Shown: positions 40,017 through 60,890 of the stretch, piece by piece | Numbering within the stretch: the first letter of the stretch is position 1 | How the letters are laid out: each line of letters begins with the position of its first letter | NCBI GenBank assembly: GCA_016218085.1 | Contig: JACREY010000015.1 | Span: forward strand, 62,001 to 126,000 | Origin: Ignavibacteriota bacterium | Lineage (GTDB): Bacteria; Bacteroidota; Ignavibacteria; Tepidaquicellales; Tepidaquicellaceae | Length of the DNA stretch: 64,000 nt | Reading direction: 5' to 3' | Notes under the pieces: model-generated | The model's database searches: none | The model's input: the letters and a program-made list of their open reading frames with translations, nothing else | Told to the model about the DNA's origin: nothing | Translations under genes and position numbers: made by a program

Positions 40017-42122
40017 TTATAATTTTATTTTTATTCTTGCATCCAAAATCTTGCTCCTGTCTGCCTGATGAGAAAAAACAAACGGATTTAAATCTAACTC
40101 TTCTATTTCAGGAAAATCCGATATGAGTTGTGAAAGCTTGAGAATATTTCCTTTTACAAACTCGATATCTACAGGAGGATTTCCTCTCACACCTTTAAGA
40201 ATCCTGTATGCATTTACTGATTTAATTAACTCTTCCGCCTCCATATCATTCACGGGAAGCAACTTAAATTTCACATCCTTCATTACCTCCACCATCACAC
40301 CACCCATTCCAAATGCAACAAGATGCCCTGCTTTTGCATCTTTCATTACTCCAAGAATAGTCTCAGTTCCGCCTTTTATGAACGGCTGTATCGTAAATCC
40401 TTCGAGCTGATTGTCTATCCCCTTTTCCTTTAATCCCGCTATAATCTTGTTCTCCGCCTGTATAAGCTCTTCGAGGTTTTTTATGTTAACAATTACTCCG
40501 CCTACATCGGATTTGTGAACAAGTTTCTTTCCCGCAACTTTTATCACAACCGGATAACCGATTTTATCTGCTATATCAACTGACTGCTGAACATTAACTG
40601 CAAAAAACGACTCCACTATCGGAAGCTCATATGCTTTTAATATTTCAACCACATCATCGAATGCAATATATGTCTCGCCTCCTTTGTATTTTTTCAGAAT
40701 GTCATTGACAATTTTTTTCTTGCCTGTGTATTTTATATATTTTCCTTCCGCCTTTTCTTTGTAAAGCTTGTATTTATACATCTGCCCTATTGCTTTTGCA
40801 GCTGCTTCGCAGTTGTTGAATATCGGCGGATGACCGGGAACTGCTTCGGCAAGTTTCGGAATTATATCATCCTGCGACATCAGAACAACCGTTGAGCATT
40901 TACCGGATTTCATTACTGCCTCGCATATATGCTTTCCGATTTCAAGAGTGTCATGCATAAGCGGTGGCCCGAGAATAATTATTCCGGCATCTATATTTTC
41001 ATCCGACATCATTATCTCCGTTGCTTTCCCGTAAATTTCTGCAGTTGCTGGCGGCAACACGTCCACGGGATTTGAGAAAGCCGCTTCGGGTACACAAATT
41101 TCTTTCAATTTGTTTTGTGTTGCTTCGGATAATACAGGTACATTGAGTCCGGAATTCTGAGCCTCATCAACCGTCAAAATCGCAGGTCCGCCTGCATTAG
41201 TCAGTATTCCTACCCTCTTTCCTTCCGGAAGAATCGTCCTGTCAAATGATTTTGCAAGGTCAAAAAGCTCATCAACCGATGCAACCCTTATTACTCCGCT
41301 CTGCTCGAATATTGCATCCACAACAGTATCCGCTGATGCAAGAGCTCCCGTATGTGATGATGCCGCCTTCATTCCGGCCGCTGTCCTGGCTGCCTTAATC
41401 GAAATCACAGGCTTTTTCTTAGTTACTGTTTTCGCCGTTTCCATGAATTTCCTTGCATCCCCAAAACTTTCTAAATAAAGTGTAATCACTTTCACATCAT
41501 CATTGTCTCTCCAGTATTCCAGCATACCGGTTTCATCTATATCCGCCTTGTTACCTATGCTCAAAAATTGTGCAAACCCGACATCTTTCAATTTCAATAT
41601 TTTTAAAACCGCCGCTCCCAGTGCTCCGCTTTGTGATACAAATCCTATTCCTCCGGGATTCGGCTCACCCTGCACAAATGTTCCGTTCATCATCACGCCT
41701 TCTTTCGTATTTATTATTCCCATGCAGTTCGGTCCAACCATCCGCATCCCGTAATCACTGATTTTTTTCATCAGCAGCTTTTCCATTTCTATGCCTTCTT
41801 CCCCAACTTCCTTGAAGCCCGCAGTTATCACAATAATGTTCCTGATATTCTTCTCCGCACAGTCATCAATCGAGGATATTATAAACTGCTTAGATACCAT
41901 TATTATTGCAAGATCAATGCTATCTTCAATTGCAGTAACTGCAGGATATGCCTTGACATCCAATATCATATCTGCTTTCGGATTAATCGGATAAATCTTT
42001 CCGTTGTATCCGAAGTTTAAAAGGTTTTTCATCAGCTCCCGGCCTAAAGTCTTCTCCTTCGATGAAGCACCGACTATTGCGATTGATTTCGGGTAAAAAA
42101 ATCCGTCAAAATTATGAGCCAT
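40017..42122 (-). CDS. ADP-forming acetate/acyl-CoA ligase (fused alpha-beta)
   Basis: About 701 residues from the ATG at 42122 (AHNFDGFFYPKSIAIVG); a longer frame to 42173 is open but lacks the family's start. Domains: CoA-binding (SIAIVGASSKEKTLGRELMK), two succinyl-CoA-synthetase-like domains with the phosphohistidine in SSHTGALASADTVV near 260, and a C-terminal ATP-grasp (VKVAGKKLVHKSDVGGVIV near 560). It couples acyl-CoA cleavage to ATP formation or the reverse, mostly with acetyl-CoA. All parts look intact. A second, GNAT-fused paralogue lies at 43485-46187. Confidence 0.9.
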   Translation of the reverse strand: MAHNFDGFFYPKSIAIVGASSKEKTLGRELMKNLLNFGYNGKIYPINPKADMILDVKAYPAVTAIEDSIDLAIIMVSKQFIISSIDDCAEKNIRNIIVITAGFKEVGEEGIEMEKLLMKKISDYGMRMVGPNCMGIINTKEGVMMNGTFVQGEPNPGGIGFVSQSGALGAAVLKILKLKDVGFAQFLSIGNKADIDETGMLEYWRDNDDVKVITLYLESFGDARKFMETAKTVTKKKPVISIKAARTAAGMKAASSHTGALASADTVVDAIFEQSGVIRVASVDELFDLAKSFDRTILPEGKRVGILTNAGGPAILTVDEAQNSGLNVPVLSEATQNKLKEICVPEAAFSNPVDVLPPATAEIYGKATEIMMSDENIDAGIIILGPPLMHDTLEIGKHICEAVMKSGKCSTVVLMSQDDIIPKLAEAVPGHPPIFNNCEAAAKAIGQMYKYKLYKEKAEGKYIKYTGKKKIVNDILKKYKGGETYIAFDDVVEILKAYELPIVESFFAVNVQQSVDIADKIGYPVVIKVAGKKLVHKSDVGGVIVNIKNLEELIQAENKIIAGLKEKGIDNQLEGFTIQPFIKGGTETILGVMKDAKAGHLVAFGMGGVMVEVMKDVKFKLLPVNDMEAEELIKSVNAYRILKGVRGNPPVDIEFVKGNILKLSQLISDFPEIEELDLNPFVFSHQADRSKILDARIKIKL

Positions 42123-42284
42123 TATTAAAATTTTATATTTATAGGAATTCTTAAAATTATGCAAATAAAACACAACTTTAAATTGATTTCATACTGCCCT
42201 GTCCCATTTATTTTTATGCATTTTAGATGTATTTGATAATAATAAAAATTTATCATATTATTAATAAAACAAAATATTATACCA

Positions 42285-42521
42285 ATGATTAAACTTTACA
42301 ACAACGAAACGGGTGATTTAATCGGAGAAATCACAGAATCACAACTTCAGTTTTTAATTGATAATCTTGAAGAGGAATCAGATGATGATGTGGATTATTA
42401 TATTAATATTCCTACTATCGATTCTTTTGTAGAACTTGGAGCAGAAGCAGGTCTTATTGATGTTCTTAAAAAAGGTCTCGGAAGCAATGAGGATATGGAA
42501 ATCAGATACGAAAAAGAATAA
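42285..42521 (+). CDS. Small acidic protein of unknown function
   Basis: 78 residues, strongly acidic, without membrane segment. Seen: KLYNNETGDLIGEITESQLQ, an acidic loop NLEEESDDDVDYY, and SFVELGAEAGLIDVLKKGLG. The composition, the beta-hairpin-like start and the absence of frameshift-like stops support a real gene. It has no ribosome site of note. It faces away from the acyl-CoA ligase and precedes the exported nitroreductase by 49 bases. I do not recognise a family. Confidence 0.7.
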   Translation: MIKLYNNETGDLIGEITESQLQFLIDNLEEESDDDVDYYINIPTIDSFVELGAEAGLIDVLKKGLGSNEDMEIRYEKE

Positions 42522-42570
42522 CGTTTAACTTAGTCATTAATAATTCTTTTTGAAAACTATATAATTTTTT

Positions 42571-43152
42571 ATGAAAAAATATTTTATATTTTTCTTTATA
42601 TTTCTTTTTATCTCAGGTGTTGCATATTCCCAGGATAACGAAACAATAAAAACCATCAAAAACAGGAAAAGCGTCAGGCACTTCACCGGTGATGTTGTAA
42701 GCAAGGATGACCTGAAAAAAATTCTCGAAGCTGGAATGTGTGCTCCTACTGCAGTTAACAAGCAACCTTGGAATTTTATTGCCGTTACAGACAGAAAAAT
42801 CCTGGATGAGCTCGCCGATAAGCTGCCTTCTGCAAAAATGCTCTTTCAGGCAGGTGCCGCTATAATTATTTGCGCATTGCCGGAGAAAGCATATAACAAC
42901 TTAACCGAATTTGCCATAATAGATTGCTCACTTGCGGGTGAGAATATACTGCTTGCGGTTGAATCCCTCGGTCTGGGCGGAATCTGGACAGCCGCATATC
43001 CCGATAACGACAGGATGAATACAGTAAGAAAGATTCTGAATATTCCGGATAATATTATTCCCCTGTGCGTTATGCCGATCGGCAAGCCAACAGGCGAGGA
43101 TAAGCCAAAAGAAAAATTCGACGAAAAGAATATCCACTGGGATAAGTGGTAA
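42571..43152 (+). CDS. Exported nitroreductase-family flavoprotein
   Basis: A 193-residue nitroreductase-fold protein. After a signal peptide (KKYFIFFFIFLFISGVAYS, residues 2-20) come the FMN-binding motifs KNRKSVRHFTGDVV near 32, EAGMCAPTAVNKQPW near 52 and GLGGIWTAAYPDN near 131, and VMPIGKPTGEDKP near 168. Nitroreductases are normally cytoplasmic NAD(P)H enzymes, so the signal peptide is odd: folding with FMN would need Tat or periplasmic flavin, and no twin-arginine is seen. It ends just before the heptamer array. Confidence 0.88.
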   Translation: MKKYFIFFFIFLFISGVAYSQDNETIKTIKNRKSVRHFTGDVVSKDDLKKILEAGMCAPTAVNKQPWNFIAVTDRKILDELADKLPSAKMLFQAGAAIIICALPEKAYNNLTEFAIIDCSLAGENILLAVESLGLGGIWTAAYPDNDRMNTVRKILNIPDNIIPLCVMPIGKPTGEDKPKEKFDEKNIHWDKW

Positions 43153-43484
43153 TCTTAATAGAAATTAAGAATTCTGAATTTTGAATTATAAATAAGTCCA
43201 ATAAATATTTAGAATTTCTCAGTACCGCTCAGTGATTCTCTATGTCTCTCTGTGAAATAATATTTTATTCTTAGGCTTCAAGATCTTACGTTTTACGTTT
43301 TACGTTTTACGTTTTACTATTGACGATTCACGGTTGACTATTCACGATTCACGATTTACGATTCACGATTGACTATTCACGATTCACGATTGACTATTCA
43401 CGATTGACTATTCACGATTCACGATTCACGATTCATAATTCAAGATTCACGATTGTTCGCTCTTACAATTTACTATTTACTGTT
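43153..43484. other. Intergenic region mostly filled by a heptamer array
   Basis: 332 bases between two convergent gene ends. The first 130 bases hold GAATTCTGAATT-like and CTCTGTGAA-like words that recur near 56.95 kb and 60.75 kb; the rest is the 24-unit heptamer array at 43285-43452. No gene, and no clear terminator, is seen. Confidence 0.6.
43285..43452. repeat. Tandem heptamer array, 24 units in unbroken register
   Basis: 168 bases that divide exactly into 24 seven-base units. Units 1-4 are (C/T)TTACGT; the rest are mainly TTCACGA (12 exact copies) alternating with TTGACTA (4), with a few single variants (TTTACTA, TTGACGA, TTCACGG, TTTACGA, TTCATAA, TTCAAGA). The frame of 7 is never broken although units vary. 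It lies 32 bases past the stop of the acyl-CoA ligase/GNAT gene, between convergent genes. Confidence 0.9.
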
Positions 43485-46187
43485 CTAAAGAAGCGGTTTC
43501 ACCACATCCACCATCGAACTCGACGGGTCAACCTCTATTTCAAATCCGCGTTTTTGAAATACCGCTATCATTCTTTGATTATCTGATGTTGTCTGCGCAA
43601 CAATTTTTTTCAATCCCCAGTGTTTTGCAATCTCAAAACAGTAATCAGTCAGTATCCCGCCAATATCCCTGTTCTGCCAGGAATCCGAAATTAATATAGC
43701 ATATTCTACGGTTTCATGGTCGGGATCTGCTATTAATCTTCCTACTCCTATTAATTTCCTTTTATCCCCGTCTTTTATTTCCGCTACGATTGCAATCTCC
43801 CTGTCATAATCTATATAACAGTATCTTGTCGCAACTTCGTGAGACTGCCACTGGAAAAAATACCTGAACCTCGAATAAATAGATTCTCTCGAACAGCTCG
43901 CAAGCAATTCCATCCACAGCGGCTCATCTTCCGGCTTTATCGGCCTGAAAAGCACTTCCGTACCGTCAGGGAGCTTTGTTTCCTTAATGTATTCTTCAGG
44001 ATACGGTTTCATCGCCAAATGCTCATAGGGCCTTGCGGATTTATTCAGCATCGCCGAATCCACTACTATCCTCGCATCCAGTGCTATTGCGCCGGATTGC
44101 GAAATCAGAAGTGGATTTATGTCAAGTTCAATTATTTCAGGATAGTCTGCGGCAAGATACGATAATCTTATCAGTATTTCTATAAGCTTATCAATTTTAA
44201 CGGGCGGTTTGCCCCTGTAACCTTTCAGCAAAGGAAAAATTTTAAGCGATTCAAGCATCTGGTATGCAAGCCTCTCATTCAACGGAGGAAATCCAATTGT
44301 CCTGTCTTTGAAAAGCTCCGCCCCCGTTCCTCCCATCCCGGTAAGAATAACAGTACCGAATGTCGAATCTTTTTTAATCCCGAGAATCATCTCCACTCCG
44401 TCTTTTTTCTTTACCATCTGCTGAATTGTAACTCCTTCAATTACAGCATCCGGTTGTTTTGTCTTTACATTATTCATCATTCTTTTATATGCAGAACTTA
44501 CCATCTCATCATCCTGAAGATTCAATTCCACGCCTCCGACATCAGTCTTGTGAGTTATATCAGGAGAATGTATTTTCATTACAACAGGATAACCTGTCTT
44601 GTTTGAAACCGCAATTGCTTCCTTTTCTGAATTTGCAAAAACTGGATTTGAGACGGGTATACCGTAAGCATCAAGTATCGTTTTTGATATTGATTCTGAA
44701 AGTATTACCGTATCTCCTTCCGCATTTTCCTGTCTGCATAATTTTGTAAAATCTTTTTTCAGCTTTGACCTGTCAATCGGAAATTCAACTGGAATTTCTT
44801 TCGGTGTCTCGTATAAGCTTGATAAATTTCTTGAATAAGAAACCAGTGTCATGAATGACCTCACTGCCTGCTCAGGTGTCTGGTAAACAGGAACTCCTGC
44901 GTCACTTAAAATCTGCATACCCTCTCTCATCCGCTCACCACCCAGCCATGCTGTTAAAATGGGCTTTTTTGTATCAACAGCTAATTTCGCAATCTCTTTT
45001 GCCGTTGCAGTCGGATTTGTCATCGCTTGTGGTGTGAGGATTATCAATACAGCATCAACACCTTTATCAGGTAAAACAATCTGCACCGCTTTCGAGATTC
45101 TCTTTGAATTTGCATCCCCTAAAACATCTACAGGATTTGCTTTTGACCAATATGCAGGAAGATTCGCATTTAACTGGGCTATTGTCTCCTCCGATAATTC
45201 CGATAATTCCCCATCGTGCTCAATCAGGCTGTCAGTAGCCATAACTCCCGGTCCCCCTGCATTGGTTACTATGCAAAGCTTAGGACCTTTTGGAATTTTG
45301 CCGCGTCCAATCAATTCAGTGCAGTCAAATATATCACCTATATCAAAGACTCTTGCAATACCAACCCGCTTGAATGCCGCATCGTAAATTGCATCTTCCG
45401 CAGCCATCGCACCGGTGTGAGATGCGGCAACTTTGGCAGATTCCGGAAAACGACCTGCCTTGTAAGCGACTATCGGCTTGGAGCGTGCAAATGAACGGGC
45501 TGCTGTCATGAATTTTCTTGCCTGTGAAATAGATTCTACATATAAAACTATAGATTTTGTTTTATCGTCTTCTCCGAAAAAATCTATTAAATCCGAAAAA
45601 TCAACATCAAGTGAATTCCCTATCGAGGTGAAATAAGAAAATCCTATTTTCTTTTCGATTGCCCAGTCCAGTACTGAAGTGCAAAGCGCACCCGACTGGG
45701 ATATGAATGCTATGTTCCCGCTCTTAGGCATGCCCGATGCAAAACTGACATTTAAGTTTAAAGACGGAACAATTAGTCCGAGACAGTTCGGACCCATTAC
45801 GCGCATGTCATTATGCTTCTTAATGTACTCTTTTATTTGCTGTTCAAGCTTTATACCTTCTTCCCCTGCTTCCTTAAATCCCGCTGACATTATTATTACA
45901 TTAAAAATACCTGATTCACCGCACTTATCTATGTATTCAGGCACCTGCTCTGCTGCAGTGCAAATCACTGCAAGGTCGGGTGTTTTCGGTAACGACTTTA
46001 AATCCGGATAGCATTGAATTCCGAGCACTGCTTCGAACTTGGGATTAACGGGATATACAACACCCCTGAAACCCCCTCCGACAAGATTGCTCAGGACCTT
46101 TCCGCTTACGCTGTTTGGATTTATCGAAGCTCCTATTAAAGCTATTCTCTTTGGATTGAAAAACGAATCGAGTTTGTGTACTGACAT
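43485..46187 (-). CDS. ADP-forming acyl-CoA ligase fused to a GNAT acetyltransferase
   Basis: About 900 residues from the ATG at 46187 (SVHKLDSFFNPKRIALIG). Domains: CoA-binding, two succinyl-CoA-ligase-like domains with ASHTGAMAAEDAIYDAAF (phospho-His) near 255, ATP-grasp (VMKIHSPDITHKTDVGGVEL near 535) and a C-terminal GNAT domain from about 730 (LPDGTEVLFRPIKPEDEPLW, then SDSWQNRDIGGILTDYCF). The same order is known from Pat/YfiQ-type protein lysine acetyltransferases, where the ligase part is inactive; here the active-site His is present, so it may act as ligase, protein acetylase or both. Confidence 0.9.
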   Translation of the reverse strand: MSVHKLDSFFNPKRIALIGASINPNSVSGKVLSNLVGGGFRGVVYPVNPKFEAVLGIQCYPDLKSLPKTPDLAVICTAAEQVPEYIDKCGESGIFNVIIMSAGFKEAGEEGIKLEQQIKEYIKKHNDMRVMGPNCLGLIVPSLNLNVSFASGMPKSGNIAFISQSGALCTSVLDWAIEKKIGFSYFTSIGNSLDVDFSDLIDFFGEDDKTKSIVLYVESISQARKFMTAARSFARSKPIVAYKAGRFPESAKVAASHTGAMAAEDAIYDAAFKRVGIARVFDIGDIFDCTELIGRGKIPKGPKLCIVTNAGGPGVMATDSLIEHDGELSELSEETIAQLNANLPAYWSKANPVDVLGDANSKRISKAVQIVLPDKGVDAVLIILTPQAMTNPTATAKEIAKLAVDTKKPILTAWLGGERMREGMQILSDAGVPVYQTPEQAVRSFMTLVSYSRNLSSLYETPKEIPVEFPIDRSKLKKDFTKLCRQENAEGDTVILSESISKTILDAYGIPVSNPVFANSEKEAIAVSNKTGYPVVMKIHSPDITHKTDVGGVELNLQDDEMVSSAYKRMMNNVKTKQPDAVIEGVTIQQMVKKKDGVEMILGIKKDSTFGTVILTGMGGTGAELFKDRTIGFPPLNERLAYQMLESLKIFPLLKGYRGKPPVKIDKLIEILIRLSYLAADYPEIIELDINPLLISQSGAIALDARIVVDSAMLNKSARPYEHLAMKPYPEEYIKETKLPDGTEVLFRPIKPEDEPLWMELLASCSRESIYSRFRYFFQWQSHEVATRYCYIDYDREIAIVAEIKDGDKRKLIGVGRLIADPDHETVEYAILISDSWQNRDIGGILTDYCFEIAKHWGLKKIVAQTTSDNQRMIAVFQKRGFEIEVDPSSSMVDVVKPLL

Positions 46188-46317
46188 AAAACTATTAGAT
46201 ATAAAAATTGGTTTACTTTTGTAGTATTCAAAAATACCTTTATTTAACTGCAAATAAAATGACATAATATTTGTATTTAAGTATTTAATATGTTTTTACT
46301 AAATATTATTTTGAAAT

Positions 46318-55478: not shown

Positions 55479-55536
55479 TTATAATTTGATTTGAAAATTT
55501 TGATTTACAATTTAAATAACAATAAAAACAATAAAA

Positions 55537-55599
55537 AGATTCGTAATATTCGTAAGATTCGTAAGATTTGTAAGATTCATAAGATTCGTAAGATTAATA
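55537..55599. repeat. Tandem nonamer array, 7 units
   Basis: 63 bases split into seven 9-base units of consensus AGATTCGTA (four exact copies are not consecutive; variants ATATTCGTA, AGATTTGTA, AGATTCATA, AGATTAATA). It lies in the spacer upstream of the fused E1 gene, about 58 bases before its start, and downstream of the HTH-like gene. Confidence 0.85.
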
Positions 55600-55740
55600 A
55601 AAAAATAGAACATTGGTATAAGGAAAAAGTAAAAAATATAACATTTCCAAATCATTCTGATTTTGAGAAATGTACCGGTTTTGAGAGGTACAGGGAATAA
55701 GATAATATATTTTATGAAGTTACTCATTTTCAAAAAAGTA

Positions 55741-57033: not shown

Positions 57034-58200
57034 TTACTTCTCCTCAAAGTTCTTGCCGAATTTGATTATATCGAAATTATATTTCTTGCGGATTTTATCC
57101 AGGTTGCGGACGACTGTATTCATTTTTTCCTCATCATAGAAAAGATTTTCCTGCACGGCTCCGTCTTCATCGAGCAGTTCATTGAACTTAACGCCAAGCA
57201 GGCGGATTTTTCTGCCTTTTGAAAGCAGTGTTTTCATCAGCACGAGTGCATCTTCATAGAAATCCATTTCCACATTCGAGAAGCGCGTGCGGGTAAATGA
57301 TTTCTGTCCGATGGTGAAATCGGAATATTTCACTTTCACGGTAAGAGTCTTGCCCGTGATTTTATGACGGCGCAGACGGGCGCATGCTTTTTCAAGGAGG
57401 GAGTAGAGTTCGCTTTTCAGAAAATCCATATCATTTGTATCCTCATAAAAAGTATTTTCTTTGGAGAGGGATTTCTGAATGCCGCTGCTTTCGGAATGAA
57501 CTTCCCTGTCGTCCTCGCCGCAGGCAACGCGGTAGAGATAGGAAGAATACACGCCGATTTCATTTTCGAAAAAAGAGACATCGAACTTAAGCAAATCGCC
57601 AATAGTAACGACTCCGTATTTCTGAAGCTTGACAAGGGTTTTCTTGCCCACACCCGGAATGCGCTGTACGGGCAGAGGCGCGAGGAATTCCTTTTCCTTT
57701 CCGAAAGGAACGAGAGTAATGCCGTCGGGCTTATTCTGCTTGGAGCCGATTTTGGAGCAGACTTTTTTCCGCGAGATGCCGACCGAGCAGGTGATTTTCA
57801 GTGTGTTCTTTATATCATCTTTAATGACCTGCGCAAGTTTTACAGGGTCATTATTATAAGAATGCAGTACACCTGAGACTTCGAGGTATGCCTCGTCTAT
57901 GCTGGCGGGCTCGACTTCGGGAGTGTATTTATACAGGATTTCCCTGACACGTTTTGAATAGTCCGAATAAAGTCCGCGTGTGCCGCGAATAAAATTCCCG
58001 TCGGGAGCAAGCCGGAGAGCTTGAGTGTATGGCATTGCGGTTTTAATACCTCGCGCACGGGCAAGATAATTCGGGCATAAGACGATGCTGCGGATATCGG
58101 TTTTCAGTCCGCCGACTATCAGGGGCTTCCCTTTCAGCGCGGGATTCACAGCTTCTTCGCAAGAAGCAAAGAAGGCATCCATATCGATATGGAAAATCAC
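57034..58200 (-). CDS. dinB: DNA polymerase IV (Y-family)
   Basis: A 388-residue Y-family polymerase. Palm residues are seen in IFHIDMDAFFASCEEAVNP (residues 2-20, metal Asp) and PASIDEAYLEVSG near 98 (the catalytic Asp-Glu pair); CSVGISRKKVCSKIGSKQNK near 138, the thumb VQRIPGVGKKTLVKLQKYG near 178, and the little-finger domain from about 235. The start is GTG at 58200, needed to keep the HIDMD motif. The upstream spacer holds three tandem arrays starting only 10 bases from this start. It does translesion synthesis and raises the mutation rate. Confidence 0.95.
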   Translation of the reverse strand: MIFHIDMDAFFASCEEAVNPALKGKPLIVGGLKTDIRSIVLCPNYLARARGIKTAMPYTQALRLAPDGNFIRGTRGLYSDYSKRVREILYKYTPEVEPASIDEAYLEVSGVLHSYNNDPVKLAQVIKDDIKNTLKITCSVGISRKKVCSKIGSKQNKPDGITLVPFGKEKEFLAPLPVQRIPGVGKKTLVKLQKYGVVTIGDLLKFDVSFFENEIGVYSSYLYRVACGEDDREVHSESSGIQKSLSKENTFYEDTNDMDFLKSELYSLLEKACARLRRHKITGKTLTVKVKYSDFTIGQKSFTRTRFSNVEMDFYEDALVLMKTLLSKGRKIRLLGVKFNELLDEDGAVQENLFYDEEKMNTVVRNLDKIRKKYNFDIIKFGKNFEEK

Positions 58201-58209
58201 CCTGTCCAG

Positions 58210-58254
58210 TTTGTAAAGTTTATAAAGTTTGTAAAGTTTGTAAAGTTTGTAAAG
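58210..58254. repeat. Tandem nonamer array, 5 units
   Basis: 45 bases, five copies of TTTGTAAAG (the second has A for G at position 4). On the dinB strand the unit is CTTTACAAA and the array ends 10 bases upstream of the dinB start codon. Confidence 0.9.
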
Positions 58255-58264
58255 TAAATCGTAA

Positions 58265-58329
<65 letters not shown>

Positions 58330-59013: not shown

Positions 59014-60669
59014 TTAGAATCCCATAGCTTTGCCGTAGCCGCGAATGTCTGAATGACCTGACATCGAGCCGTCTTCATTGAAAATAATGGCATCAATTCT
59101 GCCGAAGTCGCCGATATCCTTTATCTTATGTCCGAGCTGAGTGAGCTGGGCTCTGGTATTTCTATCCAGCACGCCGCTTTCCACCTGGATATAGTCGGGA
59201 TACCACTGATGGTGAAGACGCGGAGAATCGATGGCATCTTTCAGGCTCATTTTATAATCAATAATATTGATTATGGTCTGGAAAACTGATGTAATGATTT
59301 TTCCTCCGCCCGGCGAGCCGACAATAAGAAACGGCTTACCGTCTTTCATAACGATAGTCGGAGTCATCGAGCTCAGCATTCTCTTATTCGGAGCGATTGA
59401 ATTTGCTTCGCTGCCCAGCAGTCCGTACATATTCGGTGCACCCGGTTTTGAAGAAAAGTCATCCATTTCATTATTTAGAAGAAATCCAGCACCATCGACC
59501 ACGAGCTTACATCCGAAGTTATCGTTAAGAGTTGTAGTTACCGAAACGCAGTTCCCCCACCTGTCGGCAACTGAATAATGGGTTGTTTCGAGATGTTCGC
59601 GGTAATACGCATTGCCGTGCTTAACATTATCGCTGTTTGATGCTTTATATTCGTCAAAATCTTTAAGTCTTTTTTTAGCATAATTCTTTGAAGTGAGTAT
59701 ATCAACAGGAACAGAAACAAAATCCGCATCGCCCATAAATTCGCTTCTATCGGCATATACACGGCGCATTGCTTCAGCAAAGAGATGAATCACGCCTGCG
59801 GAATGGAAACCCGTACCGGCAAGGTCAAACATTTCAACAATATTCAAAAGATAAAACAGGCACATTCCACCGCTTGCAGGCGGTCCCATTGAAATCAAAT
59901 CATATCCGCGGTATTTTCCTTTTATTACGTCGCGTTCGACGGCATTATAATTCTCGAGGTCTTTATATGAAATTATTCCTCCGCCTCTTTTCATTTCATT
60001 CACAATTAAATCAGCAACCCTACCTTTATAAAATCCGTCTCTGCCATAGTCGCGTATATCTTTAAGGGTATTAGCAAGGTCGCGCTGTACGAGCAAATCG
60101 CCACCCTTGAATTTTTTAACGAAAATATTTTTAGAGCCGGGAAATTTCGAAAAATCGCTCCTGAAGGAATTCAAAGCCGATGCAAGGTGAGAGCTGATTA
60201 CAAATCCGTTTTCTGCAAGGTCGATAGCATATTTCATCACATCTGCGCGGCTCATAGTTCCGTATTTTTCGAGTGCATAGAGCATTCCGGCTACAGAGCC
60301 GGGAACGCCTGCTGCAAGGTGCCCTGTAGTGCTAAGTTCATTTATAACATTTCCGCTTGCATCCAGGTACATATCCCTCGAAGCGAGAAGAGGCGCTTTT
60401 TCACGGTAATCAATCGAAGTGTTTTTTCCGCCGATGAATTGAATAACAATAAATCCTCCGCCGCCGATATTGCCTGCCTGAGGATGAACGACAGCGAGAG
60501 CGAATCCGACTCCGATTGCGGCATCAATTGCATTTCCTCCTTCTTTAAGGATTTTAATGCCGACTTCGGTGGCGAGTTCATCTGCAGATGAAACGCAGCC
60601 GTTTCGATAATTCTGCGTGAATGCATTTGCAAAAACAAATAAAAATATGACTATGAAAATTTTCTTCAA
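59014..60669 (-). CDS. ggt: Gamma-glutamyltransferase
   Basis: A 551-residue Ntn hydrolase, normal length, with signal peptide (KKIFIVIFLFVFANAFT). Seen: GNAIDAAIGVGFALAVVHP near 42, GNIGGGGFIVIQF, IDYREKAP near 84, then the self-cleavage site and nucleophile in HLETTHYSVADRWGN near 362 (Thr of TTHYS), FLLNNEMDDFSSKPG near 400 and GSPGGGKIITSVFQ near 462. It is exported and splits gamma-glutamyl bonds, for example of glutathione. All catalytic positions are as in known enzymes. Confidence 0.95.
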   Translation of the reverse strand: MKKIFIVIFLFVFANAFTQNYRNGCVSSADELATEVGIKILKEGGNAIDAAIGVGFALAVVHPQAGNIGGGGFIVIQFIGGKNTSIDYREKAPLLASRDMYLDASGNVINELSTTGHLAAGVPGSVAGMLYALEKYGTMSRADVMKYAIDLAENGFVISSHLASALNSFRSDFSKFPGSKNIFVKKFKGGDLLVQRDLANTLKDIRDYGRDGFYKGRVADLIVNEMKRGGGIISYKDLENYNAVERDVIKGKYRGYDLISMGPPASGGMCLFYLLNIVEMFDLAGTGFHSAGVIHLFAEAMRRVYADRSEFMGDADFVSVPVDILTSKNYAKKRLKDFDEYKASNSDNVKHGNAYYREHLETTHYSVADRWGNCVSVTTTLNDNFGCKLVVDGAGFLLNNEMDDFSSKPGAPNMYGLLGSEANSIAPNKRMLSSMTPTIVMKDGKPFLIVGSPGGGKIITSVFQTIINIIDYKMSLKDAIDSPRLHHQWYPDYIQVESGVLDRNTRAQLTQLGHKIKDIGDFGRIDAIIFNEDGSMSGHSDIRGYGKAMGF

Positions 60670-60890
60670 TAGTGGTTTTTCTATTATTAATTCAAGTGTA
60701 TAAATACTAAAGAATTATTAAAGAATAAAGGAGAAATTAAATGCAGAATTCTGAATTATGAATTCTGAATGAAGAGCGAAAGCGTAAAGAATGCTGAATT
60801 ATGAATTTAGAATTCTGAATGAAGAGCTATTACTTTTAATCTTCAATCTTCAATCTTTAATCTTCAATCTTATGAATCTTACAAATCGAA
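60670..60890. repeat. Repeat-rich spacer: duplicated word and heptamers
   Basis: Between the ggt start and the nadE stop. The word CTGAATTATGAATT...GAATGAAGAGC occurs twice (60751-60777 and 60794-60827). Five heptamers of AATCTTC (with AATCTTT and AATCTTA) follow at 60838-60872. The GAATTCTGAATT word also appears near 43.17 kb. No gene is seen. Confidence 0.75.

Follow-up and report, generated by a model that had tools for sequence, protein, structure and literature searches.

The locus

The window, a stretch of 64,000 nucleotides, is part of contig 6 of a 3.31-Mb Ignavibacteriota genome in 22 contigs (the host genome). At 43153-43484 it holds an intergenic region of 332 bp between two convergent genes. 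The upstream neighbour is a nitroreductase-family gene (PF00881; 42571-43152, plus strand), and the convergent neighbour (43485-46265, minus strand) encodes an acyl-CoA synthetase (NDP-forming)-like protein with a C-terminal GNAT domain, the closest named protein relative of which is from a metagenome-assembled 'Ignavibacteriae bacterium' (86%). On the synthetase side lies the main heptamer array (43273-43457, minus strand), with units TCGTGAA, TAGTCAA and ACGTAAA (NGTNAAN) on that strand. The first-pass annotation described 24 heptamers of unbroken length, and this description holds: 24 consecutive heptads without a single indel occupy 43285-43452, and lag-7 identity is 0.775 (43281-43460) against 0.14-0.25 at lags that are not multiples of 7. 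The unit variation that it reported is also present and reaches ten types, namely TTCACGA (10 copies), TTGACTA (4), TTTACGT (3) and seven singletons on the plus strand. Most change falls at unit positions 3, 6 and 7, whereas every one of the 24 units has T at position 2 and A at position 4. The bounds of the array had been drawn too narrowly: 43285-43452 stands as the 24-unit core, but the periodic tract is 43273-43457 and more heptads lie beyond. This outer continuation (43458-43484, minus strand) begins 4 bp past the synthetase stop codon and comprises two or three heptads (GTAAATA, GTAAATT) and AAGAGCG; past AAGAGCG (minus strand), out-of-register heptads run on to the synthetase stop codon.

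A chance or low-complexity origin of the array is ruled out by the number of 63-base segments with at least 40 lag-7 matches, which is 274 in the window and 0 in each of three dinucleotide shuffles. Two-unit words in the main array repeat 9 times compared with 5.3 in unit shuffles (p 0.002). This excess is absent when the mixed zone of the array is taken alone, and higher-order block duplication within the array was rejected for that reason.

A short array (43157-43197, plus strand) of five or six units (GAATTCT, GAATTTT, GAATTAT) starts 4 bp after the nitroreductase stop codon. Aligned by eye in inverted orientation, it matches the outer end of the main array at 14 of 15 bases. The purine-rich strand of the main array is the minus strand, reading downstream from the synthetase, and both arrays carry their purine-rich strand when read inwards from their own gene; the two therefore face inwards, and the 332-bp gap between the convergent genes holds an asymmetric, inward-pointing pair. 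Repeats of the type CACAGAGA / CACTGAG adjoin heptads both here (43222-43256) and in a sister species (L073, 6418-6455).

Heptamer arrays in the host genome

The main array is one of dozens of heptamer arrays in this genome. A genome-wide search for its relatives, proposed by the first-pass annotation, returned 27 places at E <= 1e-3 among the 40 of 55 candidates scored, the main array itself included, and the reversed-letter control returned 0 (5 candidates scored). At least 20 other loci use its unit family, NGTNAAN on the minus strand, and the matched arrays are built from such units as CGTGAAT, AGTCAAT, AGTAAAT, CGTAAAA and others. In 444 kb of the genome (the window and 19 stretches picked blind) there are 15 lag-7, 5 lag-8 and 11 lag-9 tracts, and other lags from 4 to 13 account for 0 to 3 tracts each. 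A second sample, drawn from 12 genomes, contains 45 lag-7 tracts and 10, 5, 15, 2 and 2 tracts at lags 6, 8, 9, 10 and 11. The constancy of length seven at the locus is thus real, but it is the rule for such arrays in the whole genome and is not special to the main array.

When unit consensus was compared across the 15 lag-7 tracts of the host genome, no sharing within the genome was seen (the mean nearest distance was 1.47, and 1.25 after shuffling), whereas 8-mers and 9-mers did share units, at 0.8 against 2.2 and 1.2 against 2.6 shuffled. For 7-mers the test is probably blunt, in that flanks are included in the consensus units and 7-mers saturate; it still counts against the reading preferred below.

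Several other repeats were seen in passing. Some matches to the main array are intragenic (L033 twice, L035 and L036), coding and in frame in paralogues, and three further in-frame cases occur in L009 (11743, 14740, 16838); the coding sequence around the heptads of L009, L033, L035 and L036 is presumably a T9SS C-terminal sorting domain. Arrays of 8 and 9 bases of the types AAGATTCGT, AAGTTTGTA, GTTATAAG and ACTCTACAC recur at several loci with a near-identical unit, closer to one another than shuffled units are (window 55512-55607 and 58195-58269; L010 18152, L011 18155, L014 15882, L020 2710, L025 9577). In intergenic islands (L030 1266-1500, L034, L031, L004, L008), AAGAGC or AAGAAC links heptads, 9-mers and palindromes of the CCGCCACGGCGG type, and in L030 a composite module is repeated about four times. 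Of four genes for Y1 transposases (PF01797; L148-L151, G000 contigs 16, 12, 21 and 12), three are intact and one is interrupted by an internal stop; they are flanked by short palindromic repeats such as CCCCGTAGGGG and resemble REP-associated transposases.

Position and polarity at gene ends

Heptamer arms lie beside stop codons in one orientation. With codon-scored gene calls, family-oriented arms starting at most 25 bp from a stop codon in sense number 9 in the host genome, 21 in genome G329 and 9 in genome G119, and antisense arms ending at most 25 bp from a stop codon number 0, 1 and 0, respectively. The same orientation emerges from a motif-free rule that considers only the strand with more purines and the closest gene end, up to a distance of 60 bp. 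Of 54 arrays at gene 3' ends, 52 have the purine-rich strand reading away from the gene, irrespective of unit sequence, and at 5' ends the split is 16 to 5; 46 purine-balanced arrays, 23 too far from a gene and 11 internal to ORFs were left out. The unselected host-genome sample alone gives 9 to 0 at 3' ends and 3 to 0 at 5' ends. Array-free flanks have no such bias, as 24 of 122 host-genome 3' flanks are purine-rich and 28 purine-poor.

The rule was then fixed before 40 new, unselected stretches (800 kb from the 12 genomes of the second sample) were scored. The purine-rich strand reads away from all 15 gene 3' ends, 10 of which come from G329, and the split at 5' ends is 8 to 5; the remaining lag-7 tracts of this sample include 5 within ORFs, 10 balanced and 2 far from genes. 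Pooled, the two samples show the polarity in 67 of 69 arrays at 3' ends. The gene calls are simple ORF calls, the errors of which are expected to dilute the rule and not to create it. In the host and sister samples polarity is weaker among lag-9 arrays (9 inward, 3 outward) and absent among lag-8 arrays (3 inward, 3 outward).

It is this polarity of the purine-rich strand at gene 3' ends that is new here. In the literature searched, in which subscription journals are little covered, neither a purine polarity rule for AT-rich heptamers nor heptamer arrays of Ignavibacteriota were found.

Comparison with other genomes

In the sister genome (L044 and L073, which by sequence are one contig) only 1 bp separates the two stop codons at the orthologous site, against 332 bp here, and both the main array and the whole intergenic region are missing. 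A repeat cluster of another type lies in the sister beyond the nitroreductase gene, on its opposite side, and the one same-genus genome compared has no array at the window site. Arrays differ from those of the sister at all six orthologous sites compared (the window site and five more): opposite arrays of the host genome, the sister shows an additional gene, another repeat or no repeat at all. The arrays thus appear to turn over fast, to judge from the contrast of 332 bp with 1 bp and from the different arrays at six orthologous sites. The outgroup loci examined lack the nitroreductase gene, so that the difference at the window site may be a gain here or a loss in the sister. In the sister, an extra gene of about 1 kb (L089, 167-1263) lies opposite two heptamer arrays of the window (60602-60889), and a shortened gene has its stop codon within a GAATTAT heptamer array (L101 3440-3540, compared with L037).

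Among 12 genomes the main array is matched at 27 places in the host genome, 5 in the same-genus genome and 28 in one genome of another family; some of the 12 were chosen for earlier matches, and the other-family genome was picked because it matched. An array of G119 is matched at 26 places at home and 12 in the host genome; the sister has 8 matches, and five other genomes have none. On these match counts, the loci of one genome share unit sequences, but the sharing does not follow the tree. In a search of 296 genomes from the phylum, with only 2 candidates scored per genome for the real array, that array was matched in 12 (the host included) and its reversed-letter control in 6. Shared vocabulary across families was accordingly rejected as proof of homology for the main array: as the control also finds matches across the phylum, single matches in distant genomes are no evidence of descent, and by the same comparison any AT-rich heptamer array apparently finds some partners in the phylum.

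A phage origin was considered and rejected. A search of plasmids and phages that masks low complexity found no array match, and viral contigs held no exact match to a 24-base heptad pattern. A 20-base pattern, GTAAATAGTAAATTGTAAAA, has exact copies in two viral contigs (L152, L153).

Relation to known heptamer repeats

Heterocystous cyanobacteria carry STRR heptamers, degenerate tandem units between genes, reported by Mazel et al. in 1990; their unit sequences probably differ from those of the main array. The likeness to cyanobacterial heptamers drawn in the first-pass annotation is fair, but the kind is wider, with examples in print from Xanthomonas, Nostoc, Beggiatoaceae and Bacteroidetes (PMC4692102, PMC4679880). 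The main array is a further member of the heptameric long simple sequence repeats, in an Ignavibacteriota host: its tandem 7-bp units run longer than chance, and the arrays are intergenic and occupy many loci per genome, though some matches lie within coding sequence resembling a T9SS C-terminal domain. The repeats of Mrazek 2007, as described in passages citing that work (PMC4692102, PMC4679880), are similarly tandem heptamers, the most abundant length class, mostly extragenic and patchy by lineage; unlike the present case, those passages name no NGTNAAN-type unit, Ignavibacteriota host or gene-end polarity.

The closest parallel in geometry is found in passages of Rehm 2015 (PMC4692102) on the GGGAATC and GGGGA(C/T)T repeats of Xanthomonas and Nostoc. 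There, arrays of degenerate heptamers occupy from dozens up to hundreds of loci; those on the coding strand lie near stop codons, those on the non-coding strand near start codons, and facing inverted pairs occur. The present arrays likewise lie near stop codons on the coding strand and form facing pairs, and by geometry the main array is of the same kind. In composition the two differ, since Rehm's repeats are G-rich and quadruplex-forming, whereas the units here are AT-rich and there is no GGG or CCC in 43285-43452. Passages of MacGregor 2015 (PMC4679880) describe intergenic TAACTGA arrays in Beggiatoaceae, Cyanobacteria and Bacteroidetes. As at the present locus, relatives that lack the repeats have shorter intergenic regions. 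In that study 7-nt indels also separate two Cyanothece strains. These arrays consist of one fixed unit and lie mostly just upstream of start codons in BOGUAY, unlike the main array, which lies between two stop codons and has no TAACTGA among its 24 units.

Alternative explanations

The arrays could be a dispersed mobile element, copied as bordered pieces with (A)AGAGC(G) as the border motif. In the 30 bp to either side of GTNAAN arrays, RGAGC is found 26 times on the array strand and never on the opposite one (1.86 expected per strand), and is present at 14 of 25 arrays of the hit loci; this count leaves out L036 and the T9SS-like arrays, and its overlapping L030 flanks are not fully independent. 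Modules of several kinds are also strung together by AAGAGC or AAGAAC, and loci within one genome have unit sequences in common. In a random sample, however, the motif is found at only 2 of 7 arrays (2 to 0 by strand), no transposase is seen next to arrays, the Y1 transposases of the host genome are flanked by other palindromes, and neither a target-site duplication nor a constant border could be established. Mobility of this type is thus unlikely, and the (A)AGAGC beside arrays may be a trace of how pieces spread.

Two inward-facing heptamer arms might alternatively form a 3'-end stem-loop, serving as a terminator or a protector of mRNA 3' ends. Such pairing is best developed in G329, where both arm orientations are present at 18 of the 20 loci examined and 8 of 9 cut-out pairs fold far better than shuffles (z -4.8 to -10.4); the ninth, L155, is missing most of its second arm. 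Four pairs of the host genome also fold better than shuffles (z -3.2 to -6.7), and in passages of Rehm 2015 (PMC4692102) convergent facing pairs number 70 in one Xanthomonas genome and 75 in a second. The folded cut-outs were, however, selected for being pairs, folding at the window locus does not surpass that of shuffles (z +0.8 and +0.9), the main array has no T-run terminator, and the G119 loci are mostly single arms. Both terminator-like hits at the locus lie within the two gene ends and none in the array, and Rfam gives 0 matches at the gathering threshold across 42000-45000. Arms within a pair are also no more alike than arms from different loci (mean rank 7.7, 8 expected, 17 pairs), by which result fold-back copying of one arm from its partner was rejected. 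As the partners are not mutual copies, the pairs look like two arms, each obeying the gene-end rule, rather than a palindrome, and for the window locus a stem-loop element is improbable.

A further proposal is that arrays are kept, or filtered by orientation, for the stop codon in each 7-nt unit, with three units closing all three frames after a gene. The synthetase-side arm does close all three frames within 22 bases (mononucleotide-shuffle median 59; the other strand within 88), the stop codon of the gene itself is in register with the array TGA in 13 of 21 cases in G329, and the stop-codon point was made for TAACTGA in MacGregor 2015 (PMC4679880). Arrays of 9-mers, however, could not close all frames, and the GGGAATC and GGGGATT arrays of Xanthomonas and Nostoc (PMC4692102), are likewise arranged, although by our own reading neither of their strands contains a stop codon. 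That stop-free units (Rehm) and stop-bearing ones (here) have the same polarity speaks against a stop-codon filter being the whole cause, and as an account of the arrays such a filter is very unlikely. That the array is a set of regulatory binding sites, as its two fixed unit positions (T at 2 and A at 4) might suggest, is scarcely credible: it sits where two genes end, the sister lacks it, and at the six sites compared the arrays do not go with particular genes.

Proposed origin and implications

The main array, a heptameric long simple sequence repeat and one half of an asymmetric pair facing inwards, has probably grown by 7-bp duplication and is probably mostly non-functional. The observations made directly on it are its 7-bp register, its family, its position on the stop-codon side of the synthetase gene, its strand polarity and its absence from the sister. 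Growth would occur by repeated duplication of 7-bp units, that is, by replication slippage in a 7-bp register, an idea put forward for heptamers by Mrazek 2007 as cited in PMC4692102 and PMC4679880. It would start beside the stop codon, where ribosomes no longer cover the transcript. The purine-rich strand is the RNA-like one, and transcription-linked (R-loop type) instability would be a fitting source of the polarity. The array itself would do little; lying outside both genes, it would be tolerated and soon lost again. The first-pass annotation had called for either selection or a copying mechanism that preserves unit length. Copying of this type fits the dominance of lag 7 among intergenic arrays; selection on the main array is not needed, because the sister lacks the array, the fold is no better than shuffled and arrays differ at six orthologous sites. 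Pure local slippage from random seeds leaves unexplained the sharing of units across dozens of loci of the host genome, and the 5 matches in the same-genus genome and 28 in the other-family genome count against it.

A wider and more doubtful possibility is that the heptamer arrays of unrelated bacteria form one class of polar gene-end element, in which a sequence-independent 7-nt ruler works outward from the gene boundary, the purine-rich strand is RNA-like after the stop codon, and each genome has its own unit vocabulary. The simplest such process would be transcription-coupled copying or slippage on ribosome-free RNA:DNA hybrids. Passages of Rehm 2015 (PMC4692102) cite a suggestion from 2007 that seven bases correspond to the stretch of DNA that the polymerase holds.

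Why bacterial tandem repeats favour a length of seven has been asked since 2007. Polarity across many unit sequences, seen by Rehm 2015 for one G-rich family, strongly constrains any mechanism. It points to transcription or the gene boundary, and not to replication alone, and is testable in culturable Bacteroidota.
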